Shown: positions 3,658 through 47,236 of the stretch, one piece after another | Numbering within the stretch: the stretch's first letter is position 1 | How the letters are laid out: each line of letters starts with the position of its first letter | DNA from: an uncultured Clostridia bacterium | GTDB lineage: Bacteria > Bacillota > Clostridia > Christensenellales > Borkfalkiaceae | DNA: 64,000 nt | NCBI GenBank assembly: GCA_947595585.1 | Contig: CANQET010000001.1 | Span: 124,001-188,000, forward strand | Direction of reading: 5' to 3' | Notes under the pieces: model-generated | Seen by the model: the letters and a program-made list of their open reading frames with translations, nothing else | The model's database searches: none | Told to the model about the DNA's origin: nothing | Made by a program: the position numbers and the translations under genes

Positions 3658-6600
3658 ATGAAAAAGCTCAAGACAACTCTGTTGATGCTTGCGATGGCGG
3701 TCATGTGCGCCGTCGGCGTTCTCTTCGCCGCATGCGGTGCGAAGAACGTCCGCCTCACCTTCGATACGCACGGTGCAGGCCCCGTTGCAGAGCAGACGCT
3801 GAAGGTGGGGGAGGAATACACCCTGCCCGAGCCGCCCGCCTACGAAGGATTCAGCTTCGAGGGCTGGTATCTCGATGCCTCTTACACGGGTTCGCCCGTG
3901 ACGAGCGGCGTCGCCGACAAGGATACGACCTTCCACGCCAAGTGGGAGCAGATGTATCTCGTCTCCCTCGACCTCGACGGAGGCACCATCGGCGGAAGTT
4001 CCGTCGCGCCCAAGCTCTACCTCAAGAAGGGCGCCAACATCTCGAGCGCCCTGCAGGCCTATGTGCCCGAGAAGGCGGGGTATGAATTCGGCGATTGGTT
4101 TGCGGGAGACAGCGAGCTCTCCAAGTCCGCGACGATGACGGAGAGCGGCATTTCGCTCACGGCACACTACAAAGTCGGCTACACCGTGCAAGTGTATCTT
4201 CAGAACCTCGAGGACGACGGCTATACGCAGGGCGAGGACATCAAGGGCTTTGCCTATGCTACGGCAAACTTCACGCCTGCCGTCTCCATGAAGGGCTTTG
4301 AACGGGTACAAAACAGCAATTCGCTCGAGACGCTCGACCTCAACGATTCCGATCCCTCGGCCAACGTCTTCCGCTTCTATTTCGATCGCCGCGAGCTTGC
4401 GGTCGTGCTCGATCCCAACTATCCCGACGGCAGCAGCACTGCGGCCGATCGGCAGGAGGTCACCTTCCGCTACGGCAACAAGGTAGAACTTCCGAACGAT
4501 TCCTTCCGCTTTGCGGGCTACATGCTCCGCGGCTGGGCGAAGACGCAGGGCGGGGAAGTGGAGTATGCCTCCCACGCCATCGAATCCATGCTCTACGGCG
4601 CCGAAGCAGGGGAGCCCGATCTCTTCGAGTTCTCCGAAGACACCATGCTCTTCGCCGTCTGGACCAAGGGCTACACCGATATGTTCGGCGGCAGCGATTG
4701 CCTCTACATCTTCGATGAGACCTCGGGCAAGATCTATCTCGACCGCAGCGGAAAGTACTTCGAGGGTACATACACGCCTTCGTCGAAATCTTTCTTCTTT
4801 GTCGATAAAAAGGATAGGACCATCTCCTCGGGTAAGATCAATAGCGACGGCACGTTCGTCTACTACAACGAGGCGATGGCGAGCTTATCTTTCCTGCGCT
4901 ACCGTTTCCCCGACGGCGTCGTGCAGGGCGAGACGCTCACTTTGGATGCCTACAACGGCCTCACGTACAACAACGGACTTGGCCGCAGCAAGGGGACCTA
5001 TACCTATGAAGACGGGCTCTACGTCGTGACCTTCGAAGACGGCATACTTTCGGGGCAGAAGCTGAGTATCCGTCTCGCGCAGACGACCTCGGGCACCAAC
5101 GTCTTCCTCATCCTCAACGAGGCCGACCTCGACTACGGGCAGATGCTCATGACCTTCGTGCGGGACGGGCAGGTCCTCTCCTACACTTCGGTCTATGCGC
5201 TCTCCCTCGACGGTTTCGGCACCGCGACGCTCAATCAGGGCACCTCGAATGCTTCGCTCTCCTACTATTGGGAAGACGACGTGCTCTACCTGATTTCGGG
5301 TTCGAGCCTCTACGGCACCTTCAAGATCATCGAGCTACAGGACGGCTACGGCTACGTCTACTACAATGCCGAGGAAGAGGGCACCTACACCGCAGACGAC
5401 GGTTCGACGCTCTCCCTCGACGGGCTCTACAGCGCGACCTATACAAAGGGCGCCACGGCGCTTAAGGGCTACTATGCCTCGGCTTCTTCCAGGTTCGGCG
5501 CCGACTATGCGATCGTCACCTTCACGGCTTCCGACGGCACGGCGTATACCTTCCTCATCTCCGCCAAAGAGGTCACGATCCCTTCCGAAGATGAGGGCAG
5601 CGCCCCCGAGACGACGATCGAGCGCACGTTTGCGCTCCGCGCCAACGGCTATGCCGAATATCTCTATTGCGCATTGAGCAACGGTTCGCAGGTGGCGTAT
5701 TACGCCCCGATGCTCGTCCTCAACGAGACCGAAGAAGGCAAGGCGACGCTCTATGCCTACAACGCGGCCCGTGAATACGTCAAAGTCGCCGTGGGGACGT
5801 ATATGAACGACAACGGCGTGTATGCCTTCACCGTCACCGAGAGTTTCGAAGTGGATGAATCTGGCGCCGAGCTCCGCACCGAGCCCTACGACGTAACAAA
5901 GATCCAGGCGTGCATCTTCCGCATCGGCTCATTCACTTCGAACAGTGGCACGTTCGAAGTCAGCTATTGGCTCTCGGTCACCCTCGAGGGCGAAGATCCC
6001 ACCGAGCTCGACGTAAAGTATACGGCGGCAAACGGGGATACGCTCTCGCTCGTTGCGGGCTTTGCGATCTACAAGACGACGCGCGAAGGGCAGGAAGTCG
6101 CCATCGCCGGCAGCTACAGCCAGACCGGTACCCGCATCCGGATGACGGTATCGAGCAGCAGCCTGTACTTCGAGATCAATGAAGAAGATCACTCCTTCCT
6201 CATGCTCTCGGGGCTGCTCGGTTCGGCAAGCGAACTCTACAACGGGCAAGCCGTGGAAGACGGCGCCACGCTCACCTTCGACGGCAAGGGCAATGCGACG
6301 TACACCAAGGGCGAAGAGGAGCCCATCAAGGGGAAGGTCACGGCCTTGGAGGAGACGACCGTCTTCGGTACGAGCATCTACTCCTTCACGGCAAACGGGC
6401 TGAGCTTCCGCTTCCTGCTCGTTTCGCAATCCTCGCGGACCTATTTCGCACGGGAGAACACCGAACTTACGAAGGAGTATGTCTCCGAAGAACTCGGCAA
6501 GCTCGAGCTCGACGGCTTCGGCTTCCGTGCCCGCTATACCAACGTCTACAACATCGCGTTCGACGGCAACTATGCCTTCGATCCCGAAGAAAACGCCGTC

Positions 6601-8640
6601 CTGCTCACCCTCAGCGTGAACGGCTCTGCGCTCAATGCGTATTTCGATCTCAAGGATTCGTCCTTCACGATGCGCGGCAGTGAATACGGCCTCTACTTCG
6701 ATTACAACAACCAATACATGAACGGCGTCGTCTATGAACTCGACGGCTACGGAAAGCTCACCGTCTCCCGTATCCCGAGGGACGACGAGGAAGGCAGCGA
6801 GCTCATCGTCATCGCCAACAACGGCACCTACACCGCGGAGAACGACGGCTATCGCCTCAAGTACGAAGACGAGACGGGCGCAAAGCACGAAGTCTTCGGC
6901 CACCTCGGTTCCTATCAGATCTCTCAGACTTCGGCGCTCCGTATCTTCATCGTCGAGCTCGATGAAGTCGTCCGCGTCCTCGTCAACGAGAACGATTGGA
7001 CGGTCCTCACCCTCGATGGCTTCGGCAATGCGGTCTACATCGATAACCTCGGCATGAGCAACCGCGGGCAGTATGTGCTCATCACCGATTCGCTGTTTTA
7101 CTTTGTTACGAACGACGGCTCGGTGGCGAACATCTACCGCTACGACTTCGAAAAGGGTTCGGCGACGCCCGTCAGCATGCACGCACAGGGCTACTACACG
7201 AGCGATCTCGAATCCATGCTGTTCACACAGTACGGCTTCATGATCAAAGACGGCACCGAGCGCTACTACTATGATGTGGAAGACGACGAAGTGACGATCT
7301 ACCGTCAGGCGCCCACGGCCGATCCTTCCGAAGTCAATGAATACGGCTTCATCGTGATCCCCTTCGGCAAGTTCGATGCGACCAAGGAGTACGACGAAAA
7401 GACTTATTACCTCTCCGACGGCTATTCGGTCAACTTCAACCGCACGGACGGCAAGGATGCGGAGTACCCGCTCACCGCGCGCAAGTCCGATGGGACGACG
7501 TTCTACTACCTCATCGAAGGACTCTCCTTCACGCCTTCGGGCAGCACGTTCTCGACGAACGCCGTCGTCATCCTCCGTTCTGTGGATGCGCTCGATGCGA
7601 CCGAGAAGAGCGATCCCGTCACGAAGCAGGGCACCATTGTCCGCACGCGCAACGAAGACGGCAGCTACACGACGTATGTCGATTTTACGGGCTTCCGTAT
7701 CGAAGTCGGGCTCACCTACCACGGCAGCGACAACAACATCTTCGAAGTCTCCTCGCTTGCCGCAGTCACCTCGGCGCTCTCGATGACTTATCTGCAGTAT
7801 TCGTACCTATTCGATTTATTCGGGCTCTCGCCGAGTTCTTTCGGAACGCTCGAGATCGTCACGCCGATCGATGTGAGCGGCGAGGCGCAGGATCCTTATA
7901 TCACGGTGAACTTCGGCGCCCGCGGCGATATCCCCGATACGCTGAATGCACCGCTCAAGATCGAGAAGTGCCCCTTCGTATACGAGAACTCGCTCTTCAG
8001 CCTGACGGTCAAGGGTACGGATAATTACGATTATAGGTTCCACTTCACGCTGACTGCGACGTCGTACGGCAACGGTTTCACGCTCATCGCGGCGACCCGC
8101 GTCGAGACGTTCGAAAACGGCGGTTACAAAGTGGAAGCAGAGCGCGTCGTCGCAACGGAGTCGTCGAATATCGGCGTCGGCAGCTTCTTCTCCATCTCGA
8201 TCTATGAAGGCGAGGAGGAGATCGAACTCGCCGGGTATCTCAGCGTCGACGGTACCTACTACCTCATCCACTACACCCGCGATGAAGACGGCACGATCAC
8301 TGCGACCAAATACTTCCTCGTCACCTTCACCGAGAAGGCGCCCGAAGAAGTCGAAGGCGCGACGACGCTTCCGCCCTTCACGGGGGCTACGATCACCTGC
8401 AAAGAGGCCAAGACGTATTATACCGAAGACGGCTCGATGTATGTCGACGTGTTCGAAGAGGACAACACGATCATCCTGCTTTGCCCGGATGCCGTAAGCG
8501 GCAGCAGCTATCGCGTAGAGAGCTCTTATGATCCCGCAACGCAGACCTATACCTTGACGCTCGGCTCGACGCGGACGTATAAGGTCAAGATCGAGAATGG
8601 GAAGGCAGTCATCGAACTTGTTCCCGATCCTCAGGGCTAA
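3658..8640 (+). CDS. Giant repetitive surface lipoprotein with InlB B-repeats
   Basis: A 1660-residue predicted lipoprotein. The start at 3658 follows AAGGAG at 3644-3649 by eight bases; an upstream in-frame ATG at 3634 lacks a site. Signal peptide and lipobox end at LFAAC. Residues about 35-190 carry Listeria-Bacteroides (B-)repeats (FEGWYLD..., YEFGDWFAG...), with another near FAGYMLRGWAKT. The rest is built of divergent units marked by LxLDGFGxAxY followed by a beta-hairpin-like GTYxxxxDxYxL segment; I count at least six markers (LSLDGFGTA, LTFDGKGNA, LELDGFGFR, YELDGYGKL, LTLDGFGNA and one degenerate). No catalytic motif is visible. Known B-repeats occur in adhesins and large secreted Firmicutes proteins; the long repeat region matches no named domain I can identify. 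Tyr-, Asp- and Thr-rich composition fits an extracellular beta-sheet protein. Confidence 0.85.
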   Translation: MKKLKTTLLMLAMAVMCAVGVLFAACGAKNVRLTFDTHGAGPVAEQTLKVGEEYTLPEPPAYEGFSFEGWYLDASYTGSPVTSGVADKDTTFHAKWEQMYLVSLDLDGGTIGGSSVAPKLYLKKGANISSALQAYVPEKAGYEFGDWFAGDSELSKSATMTESGISLTAHYKVGYTVQVYLQNLEDDGYTQGEDIKGFAYATANFTPAVSMKGFERVQNSNSLETLDLNDSDPSANVFRFYFDRRELAVVLDPNYPDGSSTAADRQEVTFRYGNKVELPNDSFRFAGYMLRGWAKTQGGEVEYASHAIESMLYGAEAGEPDLFEFSEDTMLFAVWTKGYTDMFGGSDCLYIFDETSGKIYLDRSGKYFEGTYTPSSKSFFFVDKKDRTISSGKINSDGTFVYYNEAMASLSFLRYRFPDGVVQGETLTLDAYNGLTYNNGLGRSKGTYTYEDGLYVVTFEDGILSGQKLSIRLAQTTSGTNVFLILNEADLDYGQMLMTFVRDGQVLSYTSVYALSLDGFGTATLNQGTSNASLSYYWEDDVLYLISGSSLYGTFKIIELQDGYGYVYYNAEEEGTYTADDGSTLSLDGLYSATYTKGATALKGYYASASSRFGADYAIVTFTASDGTAYTFLISAKEVTIPSEDEGSAPETTIERTFALRANGYAEYLYCALSNGSQVAYYAPMLVLNETEEGKATLYAYNAAREYVKVAVGTYMNDNGVYAFTVTESFEVDESGAELRTEPYDVTKIQACIFRIGSFTSNSGTFEVSYWLSVTLEGEDPTELDVKYTAANGDTLSLVAGFAIYKTTREGQEVAIAGSYSQTGTRIRMTVSSSSLYFEINEEDHSFLMLSGLLGSASELYNGQAVEDGATLTFDGKGNATYTKGEEEPIKGKVTALEETTVFGTSIYSFTANGLSFRFLLVSQSSRTYFARENTELTKEYVSEELGKLELDGFGFRARYTNVYNIAFDGNYAFDPEENAVLLTLSVNGSALNAYFDLKDSSFTMRGSEYGLYFDYNNQYMNGVVYELDGYGKLTVSRIPRDDEEGSELIVIANNGTYTAENDGYRLKYEDETGAKHEVFGHLGSYQISQTSALRIFIVELDEVVRVLVNENDWTVLTLDGFGNAVYIDNLGMSNRGQYVLITDSLFYFVTNDGSVANIYRYDFEKGSATPVSMHAQGYYTSDLESMLFTQYGFMIKDGTERYYYDVEDDEVTIYRQAPTADPSEVNEYGFIVIPFGKFDATKEYDEKTYYLSDGYSVNFNRTDGKDAEYPLTARKSDGTTFYYLIEGLSFTPSGSTFSTNAVVILRSVDALDATEKSDPVTKQGTIVRTRNEDGSYTTYVDFTGFRIEVGLTYHGSDNNIFEVSSLAAVTSALSMTYLQYSYLFDLFGLSPSSFGTLEIVTPIDVSGEAQDPYITVNFGARGDIPDTLNAPLKIEKCPFVYENSLFSLTVKGTDNYDYRFHFTLTATSYGNGFTLIAATRVETFENGGYKVEAERVVATESSNIGVGSFFSISIYEGEEEIELAGYLSVDGTYYLIHYTRDEDGTITATKYFLVTFTEKAPEEVEGATTLPPFTGATITCKEAKTYYTEDGSMYVDVFEEDNTIILLCPDAVSGSSYRVESSYDPATQTYTLTLGSTRTYKVKIENGKAVIELVPDPQG

Positions 8641-37019: not shown

Positions 37020-38159
37020 ATGAGAAGCCGATTTGTTCCATTCGTTTCGGTTCTACTTCTCTGCTCTATGCTCTTCGGCTGCGGGACGGATGCCGTACAA
37101 GAGATGCCGCTTCCCGAGGGGCTCGTCTACCGCCGTATCAACAACACGGAATATGAGATCTATACAGATGACGAGGACGTATTTCGTGCACTTGAGGTAG
37201 AGAAAATCGTATTTCCCTCGTATCATAACGGGCTTCCCGTCACGCATATCGAAGCCTATTTGGGGCCAAGGGTCAATGAAGTCGTGCTCTCATCGCAGTT
37301 GACGGATTTGGAGGGCTGTAAACTGTATCATACTGCGATCGATTATTTGGAGATCCCTGCGGGCTGTACTGTGATCCCCGAGTATTTATGCAATGGATGC
37401 AGGTATCTTACGGAGGTAAAGCTACCCGATAGGCCCGTGACGATCGACAGCGAAGCTTTTCGGGATTGCAACAGCCTCAAAAAAATCAATTTAGGAAAAG
37501 TCACACAAATAGGGAGTAGTGCTTTTTCCAAAACTGCGCTCAGACAGGTCGTCATTCCGACATCCATGGAATCGATAGGGCAGTATGCCTTTCAGGATAG
37601 TGTACTAACAGCGATCATGCCGAAAACCGTGAGATCGATCGACGGCATAGCCTTCAGCTGTGCCGATATTTACACAGATACCGCGGGAAGTCATTTGGGA
37701 TGGCAAGACGACGTCAGCAATGGAAATATTAAATCATTTTTGTCCGCATATCCTTCTCCCGGATCTTGTTTCTGGTTCGGTGACGGCAGTCATGTTTTCC
37801 GCGAGTGTACTTTCCGATACGACGGGGATACGCCATACGTCTATTCCATGCCCAATCAGCTACTGAGCCATGTCGACGGCGAATTTACAAACGAAGAGGG
37901 GAAAGCCGAAGATGAATTTGTGCCCGTACGGGCCTTTTCGGTGCCTTTCCGTGAAGGGTATACATTCAAAGGCTGGAGCCTCGAAGAGGGAAGCAGTGAA
38001 GTGGAATTCGGCGTGACGATGTTCGACCCCACGCTCGTCCCCGAACTGCAGAGCTATAGGTGTATGTGGGAGCCCTATCTGTGTTCCTTGAGCACCGTTG
38101 GCGATTGGCTGCGCTTCACCCCCAACCAAACCCTCTACGCCGTTTGGGAAAAAGAATAA
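37020..38159 (+). CDS. BspA-type LRR lipoprotein, paralogue 1
   Basis: 379 residues. Lipoprotein signal with lipobox SMLFGC; then about five LRR_5 units (AFRDCNSLKKINLGKVTQIGSSAF pattern) over roughly residues 60-220; then a C-terminal domain with a B-repeat-like FKGWSLEEGSS...TLYAVWEKE ending. AGGTGG upstream sets the start. Its N-terminal 45 and C-terminal 130 residues are almost identical to those of the next gene while the LRR centre differs strongly. A surface binding role is inferred from BspA relatives. Confidence 0.88.
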   Translation: MRSRFVPFVSVLLLCSMLFGCGTDAVQEMPLPEGLVYRRINNTEYEIYTDDEDVFRALEVEKIVFPSYHNGLPVTHIEAYLGPRVNEVVLSSQLTDLEGCKLYHTAIDYLEIPAGCTVIPEYLCNGCRYLTEVKLPDRPVTIDSEAFRDCNSLKKINLGKVTQIGSSAFSKTALRQVVIPTSMESIGQYAFQDSVLTAIMPKTVRSIDGIAFSCADIYTDTAGSHLGWQDDVSNGNIKSFLSAYPSPGSCFWFGDGSHVFRECTFRYDGDTPYVYSMPNQLLSHVDGEFTNEEGKAEDEFVPVRAFSVPFREGYTFKGWSLEEGSSEVEFGVTMFDPTLVPELQSYRCMWEPYLCSLSTVGDWLRFTPNQTLYAVWEKE

Positions 38160-38289: not shown

Positions 38290-38307
38290 ATGCACGGAGA
38301 AAACTGT

Positions 38308-39453
38308 ATGAAAAAGCATTCTGCAATTCTGCTATCCGTCACGCTACTTCTCTGCTCCATGCTCTTCGGCTGCGGAACGGATGCCATACAAGAGATGCCG
38401 CTTCCCGAGGGGCTCGTCTACCGCCGTATCAACAATAACACGGAATATGAGATCTTTGCGGACGACTCGTTGGGCTATATGAAACTCGACGTCGAGAGGA
38501 TCGTCTTCCCGTCCTACCATAACGGTCTTCCCGTCACACGCCTTGATGCAAGGTTTAATAATAAGGTCAAAGAGATCGTTCTTCCGAAAGAATTAAAAGA
38601 TTTGGAGAGATGCTACTTATCTATGACCCGAATCACTCGTTTGGAAGTCCCTGCAGCGTGTACGATGCTTCCTGAATCGCTATGTTTTTACTGCCAAAAT
38701 CTGGAGGAAGTGCAGCTCTTGGGAGCGCCGACGCGGATCATGCGGAGAGCTTTTATCGACTGTCCTAATCTGCAAAAAATCAATTTGGACGGCGTCACGC
38801 AGATAGGGGAGAGCGCATTTGAAAATACTTCGCTCAGACACGTCGCGATCCCCGCTTCGGTAGTTTGGATCGCTTCAGACGCATTCTTGCATAGTGCGCT
38901 GACGGCGATCGTACCGAAGACGGTGACCATCATTGGCCAAAGTGCTTTTGCGTTTGCCGATATCTATACGGATGCCGTGGGAAAGCAAGCAGGTTGGGCG
39001 AAGGATCCCGACGAATGGTTGTATCTTGATCACAATTTTATAAAGAGCGACGCATGGTTTGGCACCGGAAGTCATGTTTTCCGCGGATGCACGTTCCGAT
39101 ACGACGGGGATACGCCATACGTCTATTCCATGCCCAATCGGCTGCTCAACTATTTCGACGGCGAATTTACAAACGAAGAGGGGAAAGCCGAAGAGGAATT
39201 TGTGCCTGCACGGGCCTTTTCGGTGCCTTTCCGTGCGGGGTACACATTCAAAGGCTGGAGCCTCGAAGAGGGAAGCAGTGAAGTGGAATTCGGCGTGACG
39301 ATGTTCGACCCTACGACGGTTCCCGAACTGCAGGAGGCGGCAGGGCGGAACAAATTCATGCAAGAGCCCTACCTGTGTTCCTTGAGCACCGTTGGCGATT
39401 GGCTGCGCTTCACTCCCGATCAAACCCTCTACGCCGTTTGGGAAAAAGAATAA
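38308..39453 (+). CDS. BspA-type LRR lipoprotein, paralogue 2
   Basis: 381 residues. Start at 38308 (MKKHSAILLSV) with GGAG eight bases upstream; ATG 38290 overlaps that site. Same layout as paralogue 1: lipobox SMLFGC, the shared segment GTDAIQEMPLPEGLVYRR, four to five divergent LRR_5 units, then the shared C-terminal domain with FKGWSLEEGSSEVEFGV. Relative to paralogue 1 it has a short insertion (EAAGRNKFMQ) before EPYLCSLS. It is followed by its own terminator. Confidence 0.88.
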   Translation: MKKHSAILLSVTLLLCSMLFGCGTDAIQEMPLPEGLVYRRINNNTEYEIFADDSLGYMKLDVERIVFPSYHNGLPVTRLDARFNNKVKEIVLPKELKDLERCYLSMTRITRLEVPAACTMLPESLCFYCQNLEEVQLLGAPTRIMRRAFIDCPNLQKINLDGVTQIGESAFENTSLRHVAIPASVVWIASDAFLHSALTAIVPKTVTIIGQSAFAFADIYTDAVGKQAGWAKDPDEWLYLDHNFIKSDAWFGTGSHVFRGCTFRYDGDTPYVYSMPNRLLNYFDGEFTNEEGKAEEEFVPARAFSVPFRAGYTFKGWSLEEGSSEVEFGVTMFDPTTVPELQEAAGRNKFMQEPYLCSLSTVGDWLRFTPDQTLYAVWEKE

Positions 39454-42113: not shown

Positions 42114-42550
42114 TTTTGCAATTTCGACGATTCTAAAATTTCGACGAACGGAGTACGGCGGGGCAAATCTTTCGCCCCACCCCCTCCTTTGGAGAACCGA
42201 ATACATACCCCCGACGGGGCCTCTTCAAAGCGATACCCCCTCCATCGGAGGGGGGTAGGGGGGTGGGCTTCTAATTATGTCATTCTGAGCGTAGTCGCCC
42301 CGCGCGCATTTCTAATTCTCTAAGCGCGGCACGAGCGCGTAGCGCGAAGTAAGAATCGCCACAGTCTTAATCTTACTTGAGATTTCTCCTCCCTACGGTC
42401 GTCGAAATGACGTTCAGGCCCCTTGGCTCCCCTCGTAGGGGAGCTGGCGCGGCGTAAGACGCGGCTGAGGGGTTTTTGGAAACCCCTTCTCCTGCTCACG
42501 CAGGTACTTCCCCTAAAAGGGGAAGCAAGGTGTCGGACTTCGTAGTGCCC
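42114..42550. repeat. Repeat-filled intergenic region (families C, D/B, E)
   Basis: Family C hairpins (about 42175-42270), a composite of TTTCTAATTCTCTAAGCGCG and family B ends (42276-42415, ending CGAAATGACGT), and a family E block (42420-42545, GGCTCCCCTCGTAGGGGAG, GGGTTTTTGGAAACCCC). No gene is visible. Confidence 0.7.
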
Positions 42551-42735
42551 TTCGTCGTTCTCCATTCCATTGTCTTCGTCGTGCTCCGTTCCGTTGTCTT
42601 CGTCGTTCTTCATTCCTGTGCCTTCGTCGTGCTTCGTTCCGTTGTCTTCGTTGTCCTCCATTCCTGTGCCTTCCATTCCCTGTGCCTTCGTCGTGCTTCA
42701 TTCCTTGCCGTCGCCGTGCTCCGTTCCGTTGCTAT
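42551..42735. repeat. 24-bp minisatellite
   Basis: Tandem units of TTCGTCGTGCTCCGTTCC followed by GTTGTC start at 42551, 42575, 42599, 42623 and 42647, a 16 bp partial at 42671, another at 42687, and a degenerate last unit. All units except the partial are 24 bp. No promoter or ribosome site supports translation of either strand. Confidence 0.85.
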
Positions 42736-42832: not shown

Positions 42833-43621
42833 ATGCCTGTTTCGGTTGCCGAAGCCATCGTTCCCACGCGGAATCTGAATCTTCTCTACATCATTTTAGA
42901 CTGTATCTTTTTGGTCGTCTTTTGCGGGCTGCTGCTCTGGAAGAAGCGCTATGCGACCGTCCTCTTCGCCCTCTTCGGCGGCATCCTCTATACGATCGTC
43001 GACTTCGGCGGCTTCTACCTCCTGAGCCACACGCGCACGGTGTTTATCAACGGCGAATTGCAGGGTACGGGCGGTACCTTCCTCGTTCTTTTGTGGATGT
43101 CGATGAGCTACGGGTTTACCAATTTCGCCTTCATCTGGACGCTTGTCGCCCGCGATACATACGCGAAATACTGGGTTTTTCTCATCGTCATGTGGTGGAT
43201 GATCTGCCCCTCGATCAGTGAACTCGGCGGGGCGGCGACGATCACGACTTCCCGCACGACGGGGGCCTACCACGGTTGGATGGGGGTCGCGCTCGTCGTG
43301 GGCTATCTCGGCCTCATCATCCTGCTGCTACGCAAAGACCCCAAGGCGGCGTTCGTGAGCGTCTTGCGGCTGTGTCTCATCGGGATCGCCGTACAATTCG
43401 GCTGGGAGTTCTCGCTCCTCGTGAACGGCATCCGTCCGATGAACGGGGCGAGCATCCGTACGCTCATCGTCAATTCCTGCCTCGAGACCAACCTCGGCAT
43501 GCCGTATATCTATGGGATCTGGTATCTATGGAACAAACATTTCCGCGAAGATCTGACCCGTCGTCCGCGGGACGAAAAAGGGGAAGCGAGCTCCCCGCAG
43601 ACAGCCGAAAATGCAACATGA
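42833..43621 (+). CDS. Polytopic membrane protein of unknown function
   Basis: 262 residues with about seven membrane segments (LLYIILDCIFLVVFCGLLLW, VLFALFGGILYTIVDFGGFY, YWVFLIVMWWMICP, VALVVGYLGLIILLL, LCLIGIAVQFGWEFSLLV and others). Trp and Gly pairs such as FGWEFSLLVNGIRPMN and NSCLETNLGMPYIYGIWYLWN look like family-conserved positions, but I cannot name the family. A charged C-terminal tail follows (HFREDLTRRPRDEKGE). The stop codon lies inside the left direct repeat of the adjacent island, and the last residues (TAENAT) are encoded by duplicated DNA. Confidence 0.8.
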   Translation: MPVSVAEAIVPTRNLNLLYIILDCIFLVVFCGLLLWKKRYATVLFALFGGILYTIVDFGGFYLLSHTRTVFINGELQGTGGTFLVLLWMSMSYGFTNFAFIWTLVARDTYAKYWVFLIVMWWMICPSISELGGAATITTSRTTGAYHGWMGVALVVGYLGLIILLLRKDPKAAFVSVLRLCLIGIAVQFGWEFSLLVNGIRPMNGASIRTLIVNSCLETNLGMPYIYGIWYLWNKHFREDLTRRPRDEKGEASSPQTAENAT

Positions 43622-43664
43622 GTGCGAAAAATCGGCCCTTCCGTGAAAGGAAGGGCCGATTTTT
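43607..43664. repeat. Left direct repeat of the R-M-like island
   Basis: Bases 43607-43643 are identical to 46419-46455 (37 bp). The similarity continues over the terminator hairpin with three substitutions in the loop, about 58 bp in all. The left copy includes the last codons and stop of the host membrane-protein gene plus its terminator. Confidence 0.92.
43627..43664 (+). terminator. Terminator of the 42833 gene
   Basis: Perfect 16 bp stem AAAAATCGGCCCTTCC and its complement, loop GTGAAA, ending in T6 then CG. Confidence 0.92.
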
Positions 43665-43744
43665 TCGTTTTCGGAATACACAATTTTGAAGCATGCAAGC
43701 GCGGATTCATAAGCAAAGAAGGACGCATGCGCTTTCGCCGATGA

Positions 43745-43957
43745 TCAAAAAAAGTTGGGAGGCTCGAGCCCCAAAAGTTCATATAGCGTTACTTTATATA
43801 ATTTTGATAATTCGATCAGTTTTTCGTATTCAGGGCGGGAAATATCATTTTCCCAATCGCTGATATTGGACTGGCAGATCTTAAGCCTTTCCGCGACTTC
43901 CTTTTGTGAGAATCCGCAATCCTTGCGGATCTTTTTGAAGTTTTCTCCAAAGTTCAT
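43745..43957 (-). CDS. XRE-family regulator, controller-protein-like
   Basis: 70 residues, a single helix-turn-helix domain: NFGENFKKIRKDCGFSQKEVAERLKICQSNISDWENDISRPEYEKLIELSKLYKVTLYELLGL. Size and position, divergent from a DNA methyltransferase gene, match the C (controller) proteins of restriction-modification systems. No good ribosome site precedes the ATG, suggesting weak or near-leaderless translation, also common for C proteins. AT-rich like the rest of the island. A half-site of the adjacent palindromic operator lies in its own promoter spacer, suggesting autoregulation. Confidence 0.83.
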   Translation of the reverse strand: MNFGENFKKIRKDCGFSQKEVAERLKICQSNISDWENDISRPEYEKLIELSKLYKVTLYELLGLEPPNFF

Positions 43958-43966
43958 ACTTTTATT

Positions 43967-43996
43967 TTAATAAATATGTGCATTACCCATTGACAA
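43967..43996 (-). promoter_or_regulatory. Promoter of the XRE gene with operator half-site
   Basis: On the minus strand TTGTCA (43991-43996), 18-base spacer, TATTAA (43967-43972). The spacer contains ATATGTGCA (43974-43982, plus-strand reading), one arm of the operator found in the opposing promoter. Confidence 0.6.
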
Positions 43997-44018
43997 ATAT
44001 GTGCAATGCACATATAAT
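43990..44018 (+). promoter_or_regulatory. Consensus promoter of the methyltransferase gene
   Basis: TTGACA (43990-43995), 17-base spacer, TATAAT (44013-44018): a perfect consensus pair. Its -35 overlaps the -35 of the divergent XRE promoter. Confidence 0.9.
43997..44015. promoter_or_regulatory. 19-bp palindromic operator
   Basis: ATATGTGCA, central A, TGCACATAT: perfect 9 bp arms filling the spacer of the methyltransferase promoter. A second ATATGTGCA half-site is at 43974-43982. Likely the binding site of the adjacent XRE protein (inference). Confidence 0.78.
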
Positions 44019-44048
44019 TATATTTACAAAACATATGGAGAAGTGGTC

Positions 44049-46337
44049 ATGGATAAATATGAGCATGAACGAGATGGGCAATATGATTTTTACAGGGTGT
44101 TTTTGCCGCGCGTTGATTCGACGCGAAGCGTGGAGGAACTTCTCGGTGACAACAATGACGGCGTTCTGAATGGAAACTTGATTGAATTTAAGTTGCATGT
44201 TTCAGATTTGGGGGCCGTTCTGTTTCAATGTATCAAATACCTTTCTGCGCTCCGCATCAAGGGAAAATCCGTTCCTGCAAATATTTTAATTGTCGATGTG
44301 AATGCTTCAACTATATGGTTGTACCGTTCTGCGCACTATCTTATAGAGATCGAGAAACCTTATTGTGGCGGTGCATCGAAGAACAATGCCGGATTTATTG
44401 GCGGGAATGCTGAGGAGATCGTGCATTACGATGATCCGCTTGGGGCAGAGCGTGTCGTTTCTCTTTTAAGAGAGAGCAATTTCACGAAGATCCATATCGA
44501 CGAAAACTGCATAGTAGGGTGGGCTGAGCGGTTTTATCGTGAAGTTCCTACGGCGCGCAAGGAAGATTTTCTCGGCGACGACACAGGCAAACATATAACG
44601 ATAGGGGAAATCAGAAAACCTACCCGATTTGCAAGATATATTTATCCGTATACCACGCAAACAAACGTCAAATTCCACTATTTGATGGATAAACTGAACG
44701 ATACCCTGCAAAAGAAAAATCTCGGTGCATTCTACACGCCCGACCTTTATGCGGAAAAATCTCTCGAATTGGTGCGTGCTGCCATTGCACGCGTTCCCAC
44801 GGGAAACGATTATATTATTTTGGACAGGTGCGCGGGGACGGGCAATCTCGAAGTGCGGCTAACGGACGAAGAACTTTCGCACACCGTTGTTTCGACAATA
44901 GAATACTACGAATATAAAGTTTTGCAAGAGTTGCTCGGTTCAAAAGTGCGGCATATTATTCCGCCCGTGGAGACGGCGGAGACTTTCCGTGCGGGGCTGG
45001 TGGCGGGGTCGGACGCATTGAGCAAAGAATTTGTCGAAAATCCCGTCATCAAGCAATATCTTGATGACCCCGAGTGTACGATCATTCTCTTTGAAAATCC
45101 GCCCTTTGCGGAGACGACGAGCCTCGAACACCAAAAGAGAGGGGCGGGCGCCCTCTCCTCGGCGTGGAAACGGAGTTATGTGTGCGAGGAGATGAGGAAG
45201 GAAGTGAAGGGGACTGCCTGCAACGATTTGGGGAATGCATTCATTTGGTCGGGCTTCAAATACTATCTGCGGCAACCGACGGACAGCTATATCGTCTATT
45301 CTCCCGTGAAATATTGGAAGGCGCAGCACTTGATCGATCGGGAATTTTTGGGCGGATTCGCCTTCAACCGCCGTCATTTTCACACGAATCTTGATGCCTG
45401 TATTATGTGCGCTTGGTGGGGAAACGAGGCCAAACAAAACGAGGAAATTGTTTTGAAAGGTTACGACATTTTGCCGAACGGCATATTGGCGGAAGCGGTT
45501 GTTTTGCCCGTCAAGAAGGTACACGAACTATTCAGCACCAAATATTATGACAAAACATCTTTCGCGCACGCCGAAGAAAACGGGATCCTGACGGGCTTAA
45601 ACGGGCTTGAAGCGGACGGTAGCGTTAAAAGACGCATTAAACCCTTATTCAGCAATGAAATGATCGGCTATTTGGTTGCCGACAGCGTTGGTTTCGATAA
45701 TCCCGATGCGAAGTCGAGCCTTCTTGTTGCGGGCCGCTATAACGGCAACGGTTTTTTCCTGCGCAAGGATAACTATCTCGAAAAGCTGCCGATGTTCTGC
45801 GCGTCGAGATACATTACCTATAATCGGGCGTGGACGGAGCGCGGGCGTATCATGAAGTCGGCGGACGGTGCGGAGAAATTTTTTGCCGACGTCGCGAGCG
45901 GAACACTTTCGCAGTTTTTACTGAAATGCCTGCTCTTCACCTGCATGGAAATGCAGAACCACATGCGCACGTTCACGGGGAGCGACGGCCGCTTTTATCG
46001 GAACGAGCTCTGTCTCGATACAACGAACGGCGAGACGATCGCCTCCCGCGATCTCAAAAATCTTGCCCTAAACGAGCACGAAAAAGTCATTTTGCGGCAA
46101 TGGGGACGGGTTTTTTCATGGGCAAAAAAGACGGAGAAGTACGATTCGTCTCTCACTTACGGCGCGTATCAGATTTATGCGGAACTTGACACCTTTTATA
46201 AAGACGAAAGGACGGGCGACATTGTGTATGACAATGTGGAGTTACATACCGCCCTTGCGGGATTGAAAGCGCTTGTCAAAGAATATTACAATGCCGAAAT
46301 CGTGCCCGTGCTCTTCGAATATGAATTTTTGAAATAG
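44049..46337 (+). CDS. N6-adenine DNA methyltransferase with possible N-terminal nuclease domain (type IIG-like)
   Basis: 762 residues. ATG 44049 follows GGAG by eight bases. Methyltransferase motifs: X at residues 226-231 (GAFYTP), I at 259-267 (DRCAGTGNL), IV at 350-353 (NPPF, typical of N6-adenine enzymes). The N-terminal region has Asp37, then Glu46-Phe-Lys48 (NDGVLNGNLIEFKLHV) and a following Gln helix (LGAVLFQCIKYLSAL), a layout like PD-(D/E)xK nucleases fused to type IIG methyltransferases. The C-terminal 300 residues probably hold target recognition. Base composition is far more AT-rich than the flanking glycolytic genes. No separate endonuclease gene is present, so this is a single-polypeptide R-M enzyme or an orphan methyltransferase. 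Confidence 0.87.
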   Translation: MDKYEHERDGQYDFYRVFLPRVDSTRSVEELLGDNNDGVLNGNLIEFKLHVSDLGAVLFQCIKYLSALRIKGKSVPANILIVDVNASTIWLYRSAHYLIEIEKPYCGGASKNNAGFIGGNAEEIVHYDDPLGAERVVSLLRESNFTKIHIDENCIVGWAERFYREVPTARKEDFLGDDTGKHITIGEIRKPTRFARYIYPYTTQTNVKFHYLMDKLNDTLQKKNLGAFYTPDLYAEKSLELVRAAIARVPTGNDYIILDRCAGTGNLEVRLTDEELSHTVVSTIEYYEYKVLQELLGSKVRHIIPPVETAETFRAGLVAGSDALSKEFVENPVIKQYLDDPECTIILFENPPFAETTSLEHQKRGAGALSSAWKRSYVCEEMRKEVKGTACNDLGNAFIWSGFKYYLRQPTDSYIVYSPVKYWKAQHLIDREFLGGFAFNRRHFHTNLDACIMCAWWGNEAKQNEEIVLKGYDILPNGILAEAVVLPVKKVHELFSTKYYDKTSFAHAEENGILTGLNGLEADGSVKRRIKPLFSNEMIGYLVADSVGFDNPDAKSSLLVAGRYNGNGFFLRKDNYLEKLPMFCASRYITYNRAWTERGRIMKSADGAEKFFADVASGTLSQFLLKCLLFTCMEMQNHMRTFTGSDGRFYRNELCLDTTNGETIASRDLKNLALNEHEKVILRQWGRVFSWAKKTEKYDSSLTYGAYQIYAELDTFYKDERTGDIVYDNVELHTALAGLKALVKEYYNAEIVPVLFEYEFLK

Positions 46338-46418
46338 AGATATGGCAAAGAGCAAATGCGATCGACGGGTCAACTTTAAGCGCGCTTTTGCGCTCTCTGC
46401 AATCAACAAATCATCCCT

Positions 46419-46476
46419 GAAAATGCAACATGAGTGCGAAAAATCGGCCCTTCCGCGATGGGAAGGGCCGATTTTT
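46419..46476. repeat. Right direct repeat of the R-M-like island
   Basis: Second copy of the repeat at 43607-43664, identical over 46419-46455. It carries the last 15 or so bases of the host membrane-protein gene as a relic, without the rest of the gene. Confidence 0.92.
46439..46476 (-). terminator. Terminator of tpiA
   Basis: The 16 bp stem AAAAATCGGCCCTTCC with its complement, loop GCGATG. It is 11 bases past the tpiA stop and near-identical to the hairpin on the other side of the island. Confidence 0.9.
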
Positions 46477-46486
46477 CGGGTGGAAA

Positions 46487-47236
46487 TTACTTATCGAAAT
46501 TGACGATCGCAGCGAAGTCTTGCGGCTTCAGGGAAGCGCCGCCGATGAGGCCGCCGTCGATCTCGGGCTGGGCCATGAGGCCCTTGCAGTTCTTTGCGTT
46601 CATCGAACCGCCGTATTGGATGCGCATCCTGCCCGTGTTCTTGCCCGCGTAGACTTTCTTCATCCGCTTTCTGATGTAGCCGATGGCCTCGTTGGCCTGT
46701 TCGTCGGTCGCGGTCTTGCCCGTCCCGATCGCCCAGATGGGCTCGTAGGCGATGACGACCTTCGAGAGGTCTTCGATGCCTTGGAAATCGATGGCGATCT
46801 GCTTGGAGAGCACTTCCTCGGTCCTGCCGTTCTCGCGCTCCTCGAGGCTCTCGCCGATGCAGACGATGGGGGTAAGCCCTGCCGCAAGCGCAGCGAGGGT
46901 ACGCTTGTTGACGGTCTCATCGGTCTCGCCGAAGTACTGCCGCCGTTCGCTGTGGCCGATGATGACGTATTGTACGCCGTATTCCTTGAGCATGGCTGCC
47001 GAAATTTCGCCCGTGTAGGCGCCTTTTTCGGCGAAGTGCACGTTCTGGGCGCCGAGGCGGATCTTGGAGCCGTGGATGGCCTTCTTGACGGCGGGGATAT
47101 CGATCGCGGGGACGCAGACGACGACGTCGCACTTGGCGTCTTTCACGAGGGGCTTGAGCTCTTTGATGAGCTCGACCGCCTCGGAAGCGGTGTTGTTCAT
47201 CTTCCAGTTTCCTGCGATAATGGGTCTTCTTGCCAT
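46487..47236 (-). CDS. tpiA: Triosephosphate isomerase
   Basis: Interconverts dihydroxyacetone phosphate and glyceraldehyde-3-phosphate. 249 residues, standard length. Catalytic residues are visible: Asn/Lys in AGNWKMN, His in [13 protein letters not shown], Glu in [16 protein letters not shown]; the phosphate loop is YGGSMNAKN and [16 protein letters not shown] upstream of ATG 47236. Downstream of pgk by 35 bases on the same strand and most likely co-transcribed. Confidence 0.97.

Follow-up and report, generated by a model that had tools for sequence, protein, structure and literature searches.

A restriction–modification-like unit bounded by two copies of a gene end and terminator beside tpiA in an uncultured Clostridia bacterium

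How can a compact restriction–modification (R-M)-like unit enter a chromosome when it brings no apparent means of moving itself? R-M genes often spread among bacteria without a visible vehicle, and the question arises in a 64,000-nucleotide stretch of DNA from an uncultured Clostridia bacterium of the gut, the whole of which was analyzed here as the window. Two genes—an XRE-family regulator and a putative single-chain R-M-like enzyme—lie there between a gene for a 262-aa membrane protein (42833..43621, + strand; an ORF with no Pfam family) and, convergent to it, tpiA for triosephosphate isomerase (46487..47236, − strand; Pfam TIM, 6.6e-99), the right neighbor of the ancestral site.

The unit is bounded by a direct repeat (43607–43664 and 46419–46476; spacing 2812 bp) whose copies are identical at 55 of 58 positions. 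On recounting, the initial 37 bp contain no mismatch, in agreement with the 37 identical and roughly 58 similar base pairs reported in the initial annotation. A one-T slip in a T-run extends the repeat to 43668 and 46478, where the hairpin arms have their outer end. All three mismatches fall inside the 6-nt hairpin loop, an outcome expected by chance with a probability of 20/30856 = 0.0006 (any 3 of 58 bp, in a test picked post hoc). The left copy (43607..43668; ungapped for 58 bp to 43664) comprises the last four codons and stop codon of the membrane-protein gene followed by a bidirectional terminator hairpin, and is the natural 3′ end of that gene, as had been proposed. The right copy (46419..46478), between the enzyme gene and tpiA, carries a 12-nt coding relic, a stop codon, and a terminator ahead of the tpiA end, matching its earlier description as a remnant of the membrane-gene end. 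Both copies are predicted to fold stably as RNA in either direction (left, −33.3 kcal/mol, z −6.9 on the + strand and −29.9, z −8.0 on the − strand; right, −34.8 kcal/mol, z −5.9 and −32.7, z −9.1, respectively), and each parts a convergent gene pair: membrane gene and XRE gene on the left, enzyme gene and tpiA on the right. A search of the whole genome (1,694,251 bases) with an 81-bp repeat query gave no long matches other than these two copies and the reverse matches that arise from their palindromes; the next-best match was 25 bp. The flank-repeat score of the window was 50.5, against a best chance score of 18 among 1000 mismatched upstream/downstream flank pairs. Inspection by eye led us to reject an attC-like nature for this sequence, which has no GTTRRRY-type end.

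Relatives preserve the site in its uninterrupted form. Orthologues of the membrane-protein gene (87–94% identical over matched spans, and 88–91% in another search) adjoin tpiA in G076, G053, and G029, three species of the window's genus and the sole other genomes seen with this gene pair. All three carry an empty site consisting of the membrane gene, a single hairpin, and tpiA, with no island; the hairpin is one perfect stem each in G076 and G029 and, by eye, an imperfect stem in G053. The search of relatives suggested in the initial annotation thus bears out its ancestral order of membrane gene, one terminator, and tpiA. Relatives with both repeat copies and no island, an arrangement that would speak against insertion, are absent among these three genomes, the only ones able to show two terminators; a further genome with the membrane gene (G356) has no tpiA in its 3.7-kb locus. 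Terminator sequences vary among the species, and the empty sites are not conserved in sequence. Since the species' terminators differ while the two copies in the window are so alike, the copying is likely to have taken place in this lineage.

The inserted unit itself (43669..46418) spans 2750 bp at 46.7% GC, whereas its flanks stand at 55.9% (left) and 58.2% (right); only 3% of 2750-bp windows across the 64 kb have a GC content as low. Its description as much more AT-rich than its surroundings applies to the XRE end (39.4% GC), the enzyme gene being moderately AT-rich (48.2%). The unit is without terminal inverted repeats (score 7, equalled by 448 of 1000 random pairs). Profile scans of its two genes found no integrase or transposase family, as had been noted from the reading frames, and no integrase gene—which would contradict the proposed mode of entry—was found at the island's ends. 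At the level of sequence comparison, we regard insertion with target duplication as confirmed, and for the window the claim of a clear example that uses a terminator hairpin as its target holds on the strength of the empty sites and the repeat.

The enzyme gene (44049..46337, + strand) encodes 762 aa with an N-terminal nuclease-like motif (D37...E46-x-K48...Q60), N6-adenine methyltransferase motifs (DRCAGTG at 259 and ENPPF at 349), and then a C-terminal specificity-like region. D37, E46, K48, and Q60, together with D259-R-C-x-G-T-G and E349-N-P-P, are invariant across 46 homologues; we take these motifs, from general knowledge, to be those of a nuclease and an N6-adenine methyltransferase. 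By motif reading, nuclease and amino-methyltransferase elements thus reside in one chain, a type IIG feature, and the order of nuclease-like motif, methyltransferase motifs, and C-terminal region is that of type IIG R-M enzymes. The window enzyme departs from those enzymes in matching no Pfam or NCBIfam family and in its weak IIG profile matches (PADLOC IIG model, E 0.013 for the window enzyme and 9e-5 in 1 of 46 homologues). Pfam N6_Mtase was matched by 1 of the 46 homologues, PADLOC type II methyltransferase models by at most 3 of 46, and solved structures gave no significant match to the enzyme. The enzyme presumably works as a type IIG system, both methylating and cleaving DNA.

Divergent from the enzyme gene, the XRE-family regulator (43745..43957, − strand) encodes 70 aa (Pfam HTH_3, 1.2e-13). 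The intervening control region (43974..44018) holds a TTGACA-17-TATAAT promoter of the enzyme gene, a 12/12 match, and the palindrome ATATGTGCAATGCACATAT, which overlies the promoter spacer and reaches into the −10 box, with a second, imperfect half upstream. The XRE protein presumably represses the enzyme promoter via the palindrome. Close XRE homologues stand beside the enzyme gene in L052 (64%), L056, and L058/L040, and a comparable promoter/palindrome layout was recognized by eye upstream of the same enzyme genes. Among the matches listed, an XRE-like gene lies divergent and directly upstream in 7 of 81 loci and in a form near the window's in 4 of 81, with 5 of the 81 having less than 400 bp of upstream sequence. 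R-M control (C) protein circuits likewise have a small XRE-type gene adjoining the enzyme and palindromes over the promoter; the window gene differs in being divergent from the enzyme gene and in the weak likeness of its product to the control-protein model (E 0.0024).

We then asked how this family behaves elsewhere. Enzyme homologues, 42–82% identical, occur in several phyla (80 loci among the matches listed, of 130 relatives; 81 with the window), and a tree was drawn for 47 of the 81 loci. The family appears sparse, since the window's copy is the sole one at E ≤ 1e-80 in 398 genomes of the phylum; no homologues were found in IMG/VR or phages, and the genes flanking L040 had no match in any other fetched locus. 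Flank repeats were scanned in 71 loci, after removal of short-flank loci by rule and of six truncated matches by hand (L106, L107, L108, L111, L116, and L120); the scans are partly non-independent (by contig, coordinates, and titles, L072 is the same region as L041 and L058 the same as L040, and L093 and L103 are near-identical). Among the matches listed, a long repeat lies near the gene in 6 of 71 loci, the window included, and the other 65, including the near relatives L052 and L058/L040, have no long flanking repeat, short duplications being indistinguishable from chance. Duplication is therefore not a constant product of the unit's movement.

In L117 (Elusimicrobiota), the homologue lies downstream of gmk and is flanked by an 88-bp duplicate of the first part of a flavoprotein (PF02441) gene, with 87 of 88 positions identical; by gene order, the target gene is probably coaBC. 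The L117 genome has no further copy of the repeat longer than 41 bp, and the repeat is an apparent target duplication, read from a 6.3-kb metagenomic contig whose end lies close to the right copy; no empty counterpart of this locus was found, its genus group comprising a single genome. In L121, a 31-bp repeat lies at the 3′ end of a tRNA-Arg gene. The tree places L117 and L121 as sisters (95/97), and their inserts and that of the window share no common ends. Of the other three loci with long repeats, L065 has repeats that by eye resemble Treponema integron attC sites; the 80-bp repeat of L088 is a dispersed repeat, since it has eight matching places in its genome (both flanking copies counted); and the diverged repeat of L123, about 190 bp with a poly-G tract, is at most a candidate target duplication. 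Far repeats in L102, L061, and L122, at a distance of about 1.5–2 kb on one or both sides of the gene, look like gene segments present more than once or like larger elements, and they were not counted as target duplications. A dispersed motif resembling an uptake signal was also observed in passing. The use of a terminator does not carry over to the family: with a coaBC-like gene interior and a tRNA end as the other targets, and 65 of 71 loci without a long repeat, terminators are not its general or preferred target.

We consider it probable that a compact R-M-like unit, carrying neither transposase nor integrase, was inserted between membrane gene and tpiA, which face each other, with duplication of a target of about 60 bp. 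As to the molecular steps, we infer that the incoming fragment was joined to the target at two strand breaks separated by about 60 nt, so that the sequence between the breaks became duplicated; the process may have involved a staggered break with fill-in, or copying at a fork that had stalled or been cut at the palindrome. The duplication would have been retained because it leaves both of the new convergent pairs (membrane gene/XRE, enzyme/tpiA) with a bidirectional terminator of their own, and changes after insertion would amount to three substitutions, each within the hairpin loop, and the gain or loss of a single T in the tail. Far more speculative, and rather doubtful at present, is the broader proposal that this single-chain gene family is a transposase-free mobile element that enters unrelated phyla and sites via breaks it helps make, leaves variable target duplications (31, 58–61, and 88 bp), and keeps insertions whose neighbors still work (a terminator, a tRNA end, a re-started coaBC-like gene).

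The repeats might instead be attL and attR of a stripped-down integrative element that a site-specific tyrosine recombinase encoded elsewhere mobilized in trans, with the gene end and terminator as attB. Integrases typically insert at 3′ gene ends and restore the end, the position of L121 with its 31-bp repeat fits this pattern, and the genome has four PF00589 (tyrosine recombinase) matches. None of the four lies inside the window, and the unit's two genes include no integrase. The relatives' empty sites lack the sequence conservation expected of an attB, and the homologues' targets differ from one another. In 19–20-kb stretches around the four PF00589 integrases (one of them 0.5 kb from a contig end), no exact non-simple direct repeats of at least 16 bp were found, nor did the window repeat share any word longer than 13 bases with these stretches. 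As far as tyrosine recombinases are concerned, the locus thus lacks the mark of an integrase-borne island or stripped derivative (IME/CIME), namely an integrase in the unit or genome with matching att repeats, and we judge this origin unlikely.

We likewise think it quite unlikely that the unit arrived by Campbell-type entry, in which a circle (a plasmid, or one excised from another strain) carrying the unit and one terminator copy recombined homologously with the site. One crossover would yield the same end product, direct repeats permit circle formation, and homologues occur on 4 plasmid records; those homologues are all from Limosilactobacillus and only 41–42% identical, a shared stretch of about 60 bp is short for RecA to recombine efficiently, and the scheme merely shifts the question to a first capture elsewhere. 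Coincidence—two alike terminators evolved independently around an old insertion, as terminators within one genome can be—is refuted by the gene-end relic and the empty sites and is exceedingly improbable, the right copy holding last codons and a stop with about 20 bp identical outside the hairpin, the genome just two long copies, and the relatives a single hairpin at the site.

The preferred reading, insertion of the unit with duplication of its target, has a counterpart in Helicobacter pylori, for whose R-M genes insertion with long target duplication (ILTD) has been described (Nobusato et al. 2000, Gene 259:99; Furuta et al. 2010, NAR 38:2428; cited in PMC3874152, PMC3031569, PMC1643837). 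As these citing articles summarize it, ILTD was put forward on the basis of two H. pylori genomes, their passages on it name no mechanism, and the direct repeats are, in a review among them, "in the order of 100 bp," compared with 58–61 bp in the window. Set against these summaries, the window shares several features: an R-M-like unit without transposase, integrase (two genes scanned), or terminal inverted repeats; a long direct repeat of a unique target sequence at both ends; and an empty allele in relatives, where the target is present once and uninterrupted (3 of 3 genomes). By the same summaries, it differs in lying in another phylum, in being compared between species rather than strains, in having a gene end plus bidirectional terminator as its target, and in that both new convergent gene pairs own a terminator. 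Because an apparent second case (L117) involves a homologous gene in a distant phylum, the process can be tested with one cassette family. The locus, whose inserted genes are R-M-like by motifs and weak profile matches, would be a clean further case of ILTD-type insertion, offering a before/after pair in another phylum in which the duplicated target has an evident use.

The island, an inserted unit of 2750 bp (43669..46418), is flanked by a direct repeat (43607-43664 and 46419-46476) that is identical at 55 of 58 positions, the initial 37 bp without mismatch. The repeat extends to 43668 and 46478, the outer ends of the hairpin arms, if the left tail is allowed one extra T. The left copy comprises the last four codons, stop codon, and terminator of the membrane-protein gene (42833-43621, plus strand); the right copy comprises the same gene-end relic and terminator, 8 bp from the end of tpiA (46487-47236, minus strand). 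These measurements bear out the initial annotation, which had described two flanking copies, 37 bp identical and about 58 bp similar, the left a natural gene end and the right a relic with a terminator before tpiA. Genome-wide, long matches to the repeat occur at these two places only in the whole 1.69-Mb sequence. Just 5′ of the membrane gene lie six imperfect ~24-bp repeat copies (42549-42727), crossed by several open frames.

All three mismatches between the copies fall inside the six-base hairpin loop (GTGAAA vs. GCGATG); the chance of this is 20/30856 if mismatches are placed anywhere in 58 bp, a value calculated post hoc with the pattern already seen. RNA folding gave strong structures on both strands for both hairpin copies. 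The membrane gene and tpiA point toward each other, and the island genes away from each other—XRE leftward, enzyme rightward—so each repeat copy separates a new convergent pair. Selection for two working bidirectional terminators would explain the unchanged stems, and the insertion was presumably recent, because the right-copy relic is identical though without a coding role.

To locate the empty site, we searched for the membrane gene in 103 genus genomes at a strict limit (19 matches) and 101 at the ordinary limit (53 matches), and for tpiA in 101 (85 matches). The two genes adjoin in three genomes besides the window's own (G076, G053, and G029), a count from draft contigs in which some neighbors may be missed; elsewhere, genomes carrying both have them on separate contigs or, in G001, ~61 kb apart. 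All three adjacent pairs are separated by a single hairpin and no further gene, the stem being perfect in G076 and G029 (one each) and imperfect in G053. The gene end of G076, the closest of the three, is TGAGTGCAAAAA, present once and resembling the window's TGAGTGCGAAAAA. Terminators vary between species, whereas the window's two copies are nearly alike. Hence the ancestral order was membrane gene, terminator, tpiA, and the island arrived with a copy of its target. Such an order, with one shared terminator, had been proposed initially along with a search of relatives for the empty site; that search, now run, returned one hairpin and no island in every genome with adjacent genes.

The GC content of the island is 46.7%, against 55.9% and 58.2% on its two sides. 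The earlier description of it as much more AT-rich than its surroundings holds as to direction; "much" fits the XRE end but not the enzyme gene. The XRE-type protein (43745..43957, minus strand) matches Pfam HTH_3 (E = 1.2e-13). The 762-aa enzyme (44049..46337, plus strand) had no match in Pfam and NCBIfam scans and no significant match among solved structures; the PADLOC model for type IIG matched it weakly (E = 0.013). Across 46 homologues, Pfam N6_Mtase matched one, the IIG model one, and a type II methyltransferase model at most three. Residues invariant over these homologues include D37, E46, K48, Q60, and the motifs D-R-C-x-G-T-G and E-N-P-P, a set we take to represent a PD-(D/E)XK nuclease plus an adenine methyltransferase. 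Between the two genes lies a promoter matching consensus at 12/12 positions (TTGACA-17-TATAAT), its spacer covered by a palindrome; by eye, the homologous loci L052, L056, and L040/L058 (one region) share this arrangement. The XRE protein likely represses the enzyme promoter. A divergent XRE-like gene lies directly upstream in 7 of 81 loci.

Matches to the unit occurred in 13 of 301 genomes of the family (six long, the window's included) and, across 398 genomes of the phylum, in the own genome only (E ≤ 1e-80). GTDB contigs held 130 relatives; the 80 listed are 42–82% identical and come from Bacillota, Bacteroidota, Spirochaetota, Actinomycetota, Pseudomonadota, and other phyla. Four plasmid records carry a relative; IMG/VR and phage records yielded none. 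Phyla mix at some well-supported forks of a 47-locus tree, as where an Anaerotignum isolate joins an Actinomycetaceae bin (99/91). Yet phylum labels in that tree cluster more tightly than they do after shuffling (10 changes; minimum 6, shuffled mean 18.9), which argues that transfer between phyla is occasional; bins may contain stray contigs.

The flanks of 71 loci, counting the window's, were screened for gapped repeats over 900 bp on the upstream side and 600 bp on the downstream side. Six loci, the window among them, had long direct repeats (scores 29 to 121.5; maximum 18 in 1000 mismatched flank pairs). At L117, on a 6.3-kb contig of an Elusimicrobiota bin, 88 bp of a flavoprotein gene start stand on both sides (87/88 identical), and the right copy is continuous with the rest of the gene, which has acquired a new start codon. 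This gene, downstream of gmk and with PF02441 across the 103 aa present, is presumably coaBC; that genome held no further repeat copies above 41 bp. At L121 (Bacilli bin), sister to L117 in the tree (95/97), the 31-bp repeat corresponds to a tRNA-Arg 3′ end. By eye, the L065 homologue (Treponema bin) lies between attC-like repeats (4850-4925 and 7350-7425), and the genes upstream of it look methyltransferase- and nuclease-like, an arrangement that would fit defence genes carried as integron cassettes. L123 (Limosilactobacillus portuensis) has a long diverged repeat of ~190 bp (4785-4980 and 7687-7880) that contains a short open frame, its two copies differing in the length of a poly-G tract; this is possibly a phase-variable leader. 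The L088 repeat, dispersed in its genome, was rejected as a target duplication. The remaining 65 loci, including close kin L052 and L058, had no flanking repeat above chance. Long duplications thus recur in this gene family, yet in a minority of loci, and the vehicles look mixed. At L043, three ~161-bp tandem copies (620-1001) ~500 bp upstream of the homologue resemble, by eye, repeated tRNA-Ser segments.

Neither terminal inverted repeats nor shared ends were found among the inserts of the window, L117, and L121, and the genome's four tyrosine recombinases have no matching repeats nearby. No integrase or transposase was found among the unit's genes, in agreement with the initial annotation. 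Given these features, capture of a fragment at a staggered or two-step break would be the most likely route. One end of the palindrome coincides with one end of the duplication, and in this single case the palindrome may have been the fragile point.

A dispersed motif of ~25 bp, W5-N4-ACATGGGG-N3-W5 (broader form W5-N4-ACATG(G/A)G(G/T)-N3-W5), has a variant in the 5′ half of the duplicated target (43608-43632 and 46420-46444). An order-3 Markov model predicts 10.6 occurrences of ACATGGGG in 447,052 bases of the own genome; 47 were counted (rank 22 of 9925 words), with A/T blocks on both sides in 22/47 vs. 19/1548 for permuted words. Among genus relatives, blocks accompany 6/8 copies in 80 kb of G024 and 0/4, 0/3, and 0/1 in G029, G059, and G048 (76-80 kb each); G076, G053, and G077, for which less sequence was sampled, did not show the motif. 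The 82%-identical cassette L052 has a copy ~80 bp beyond its XRE gene (2842-2876), and some copies lie, by eye, in terminator loops. The layout recalls Pasteurellaceae uptake sequences; that DNA uptake is linked to cassette arrival would be a guess. Elsewhere in the window, adjacent genes (37020-38159 and 38290-39453), an apparent tandem duplication, encode two similar proteins, presumably lipoprotein-like with leucine-rich (BspA-like) repeats.

Comparison of closely related genomes has suggested R-M insertion with long, variable target duplications (PMC3031569), a pattern tied to H. pylori 26695 and J99 (PMC1643837). With its R-M-like unit, the window would be a further instance of this known pattern.
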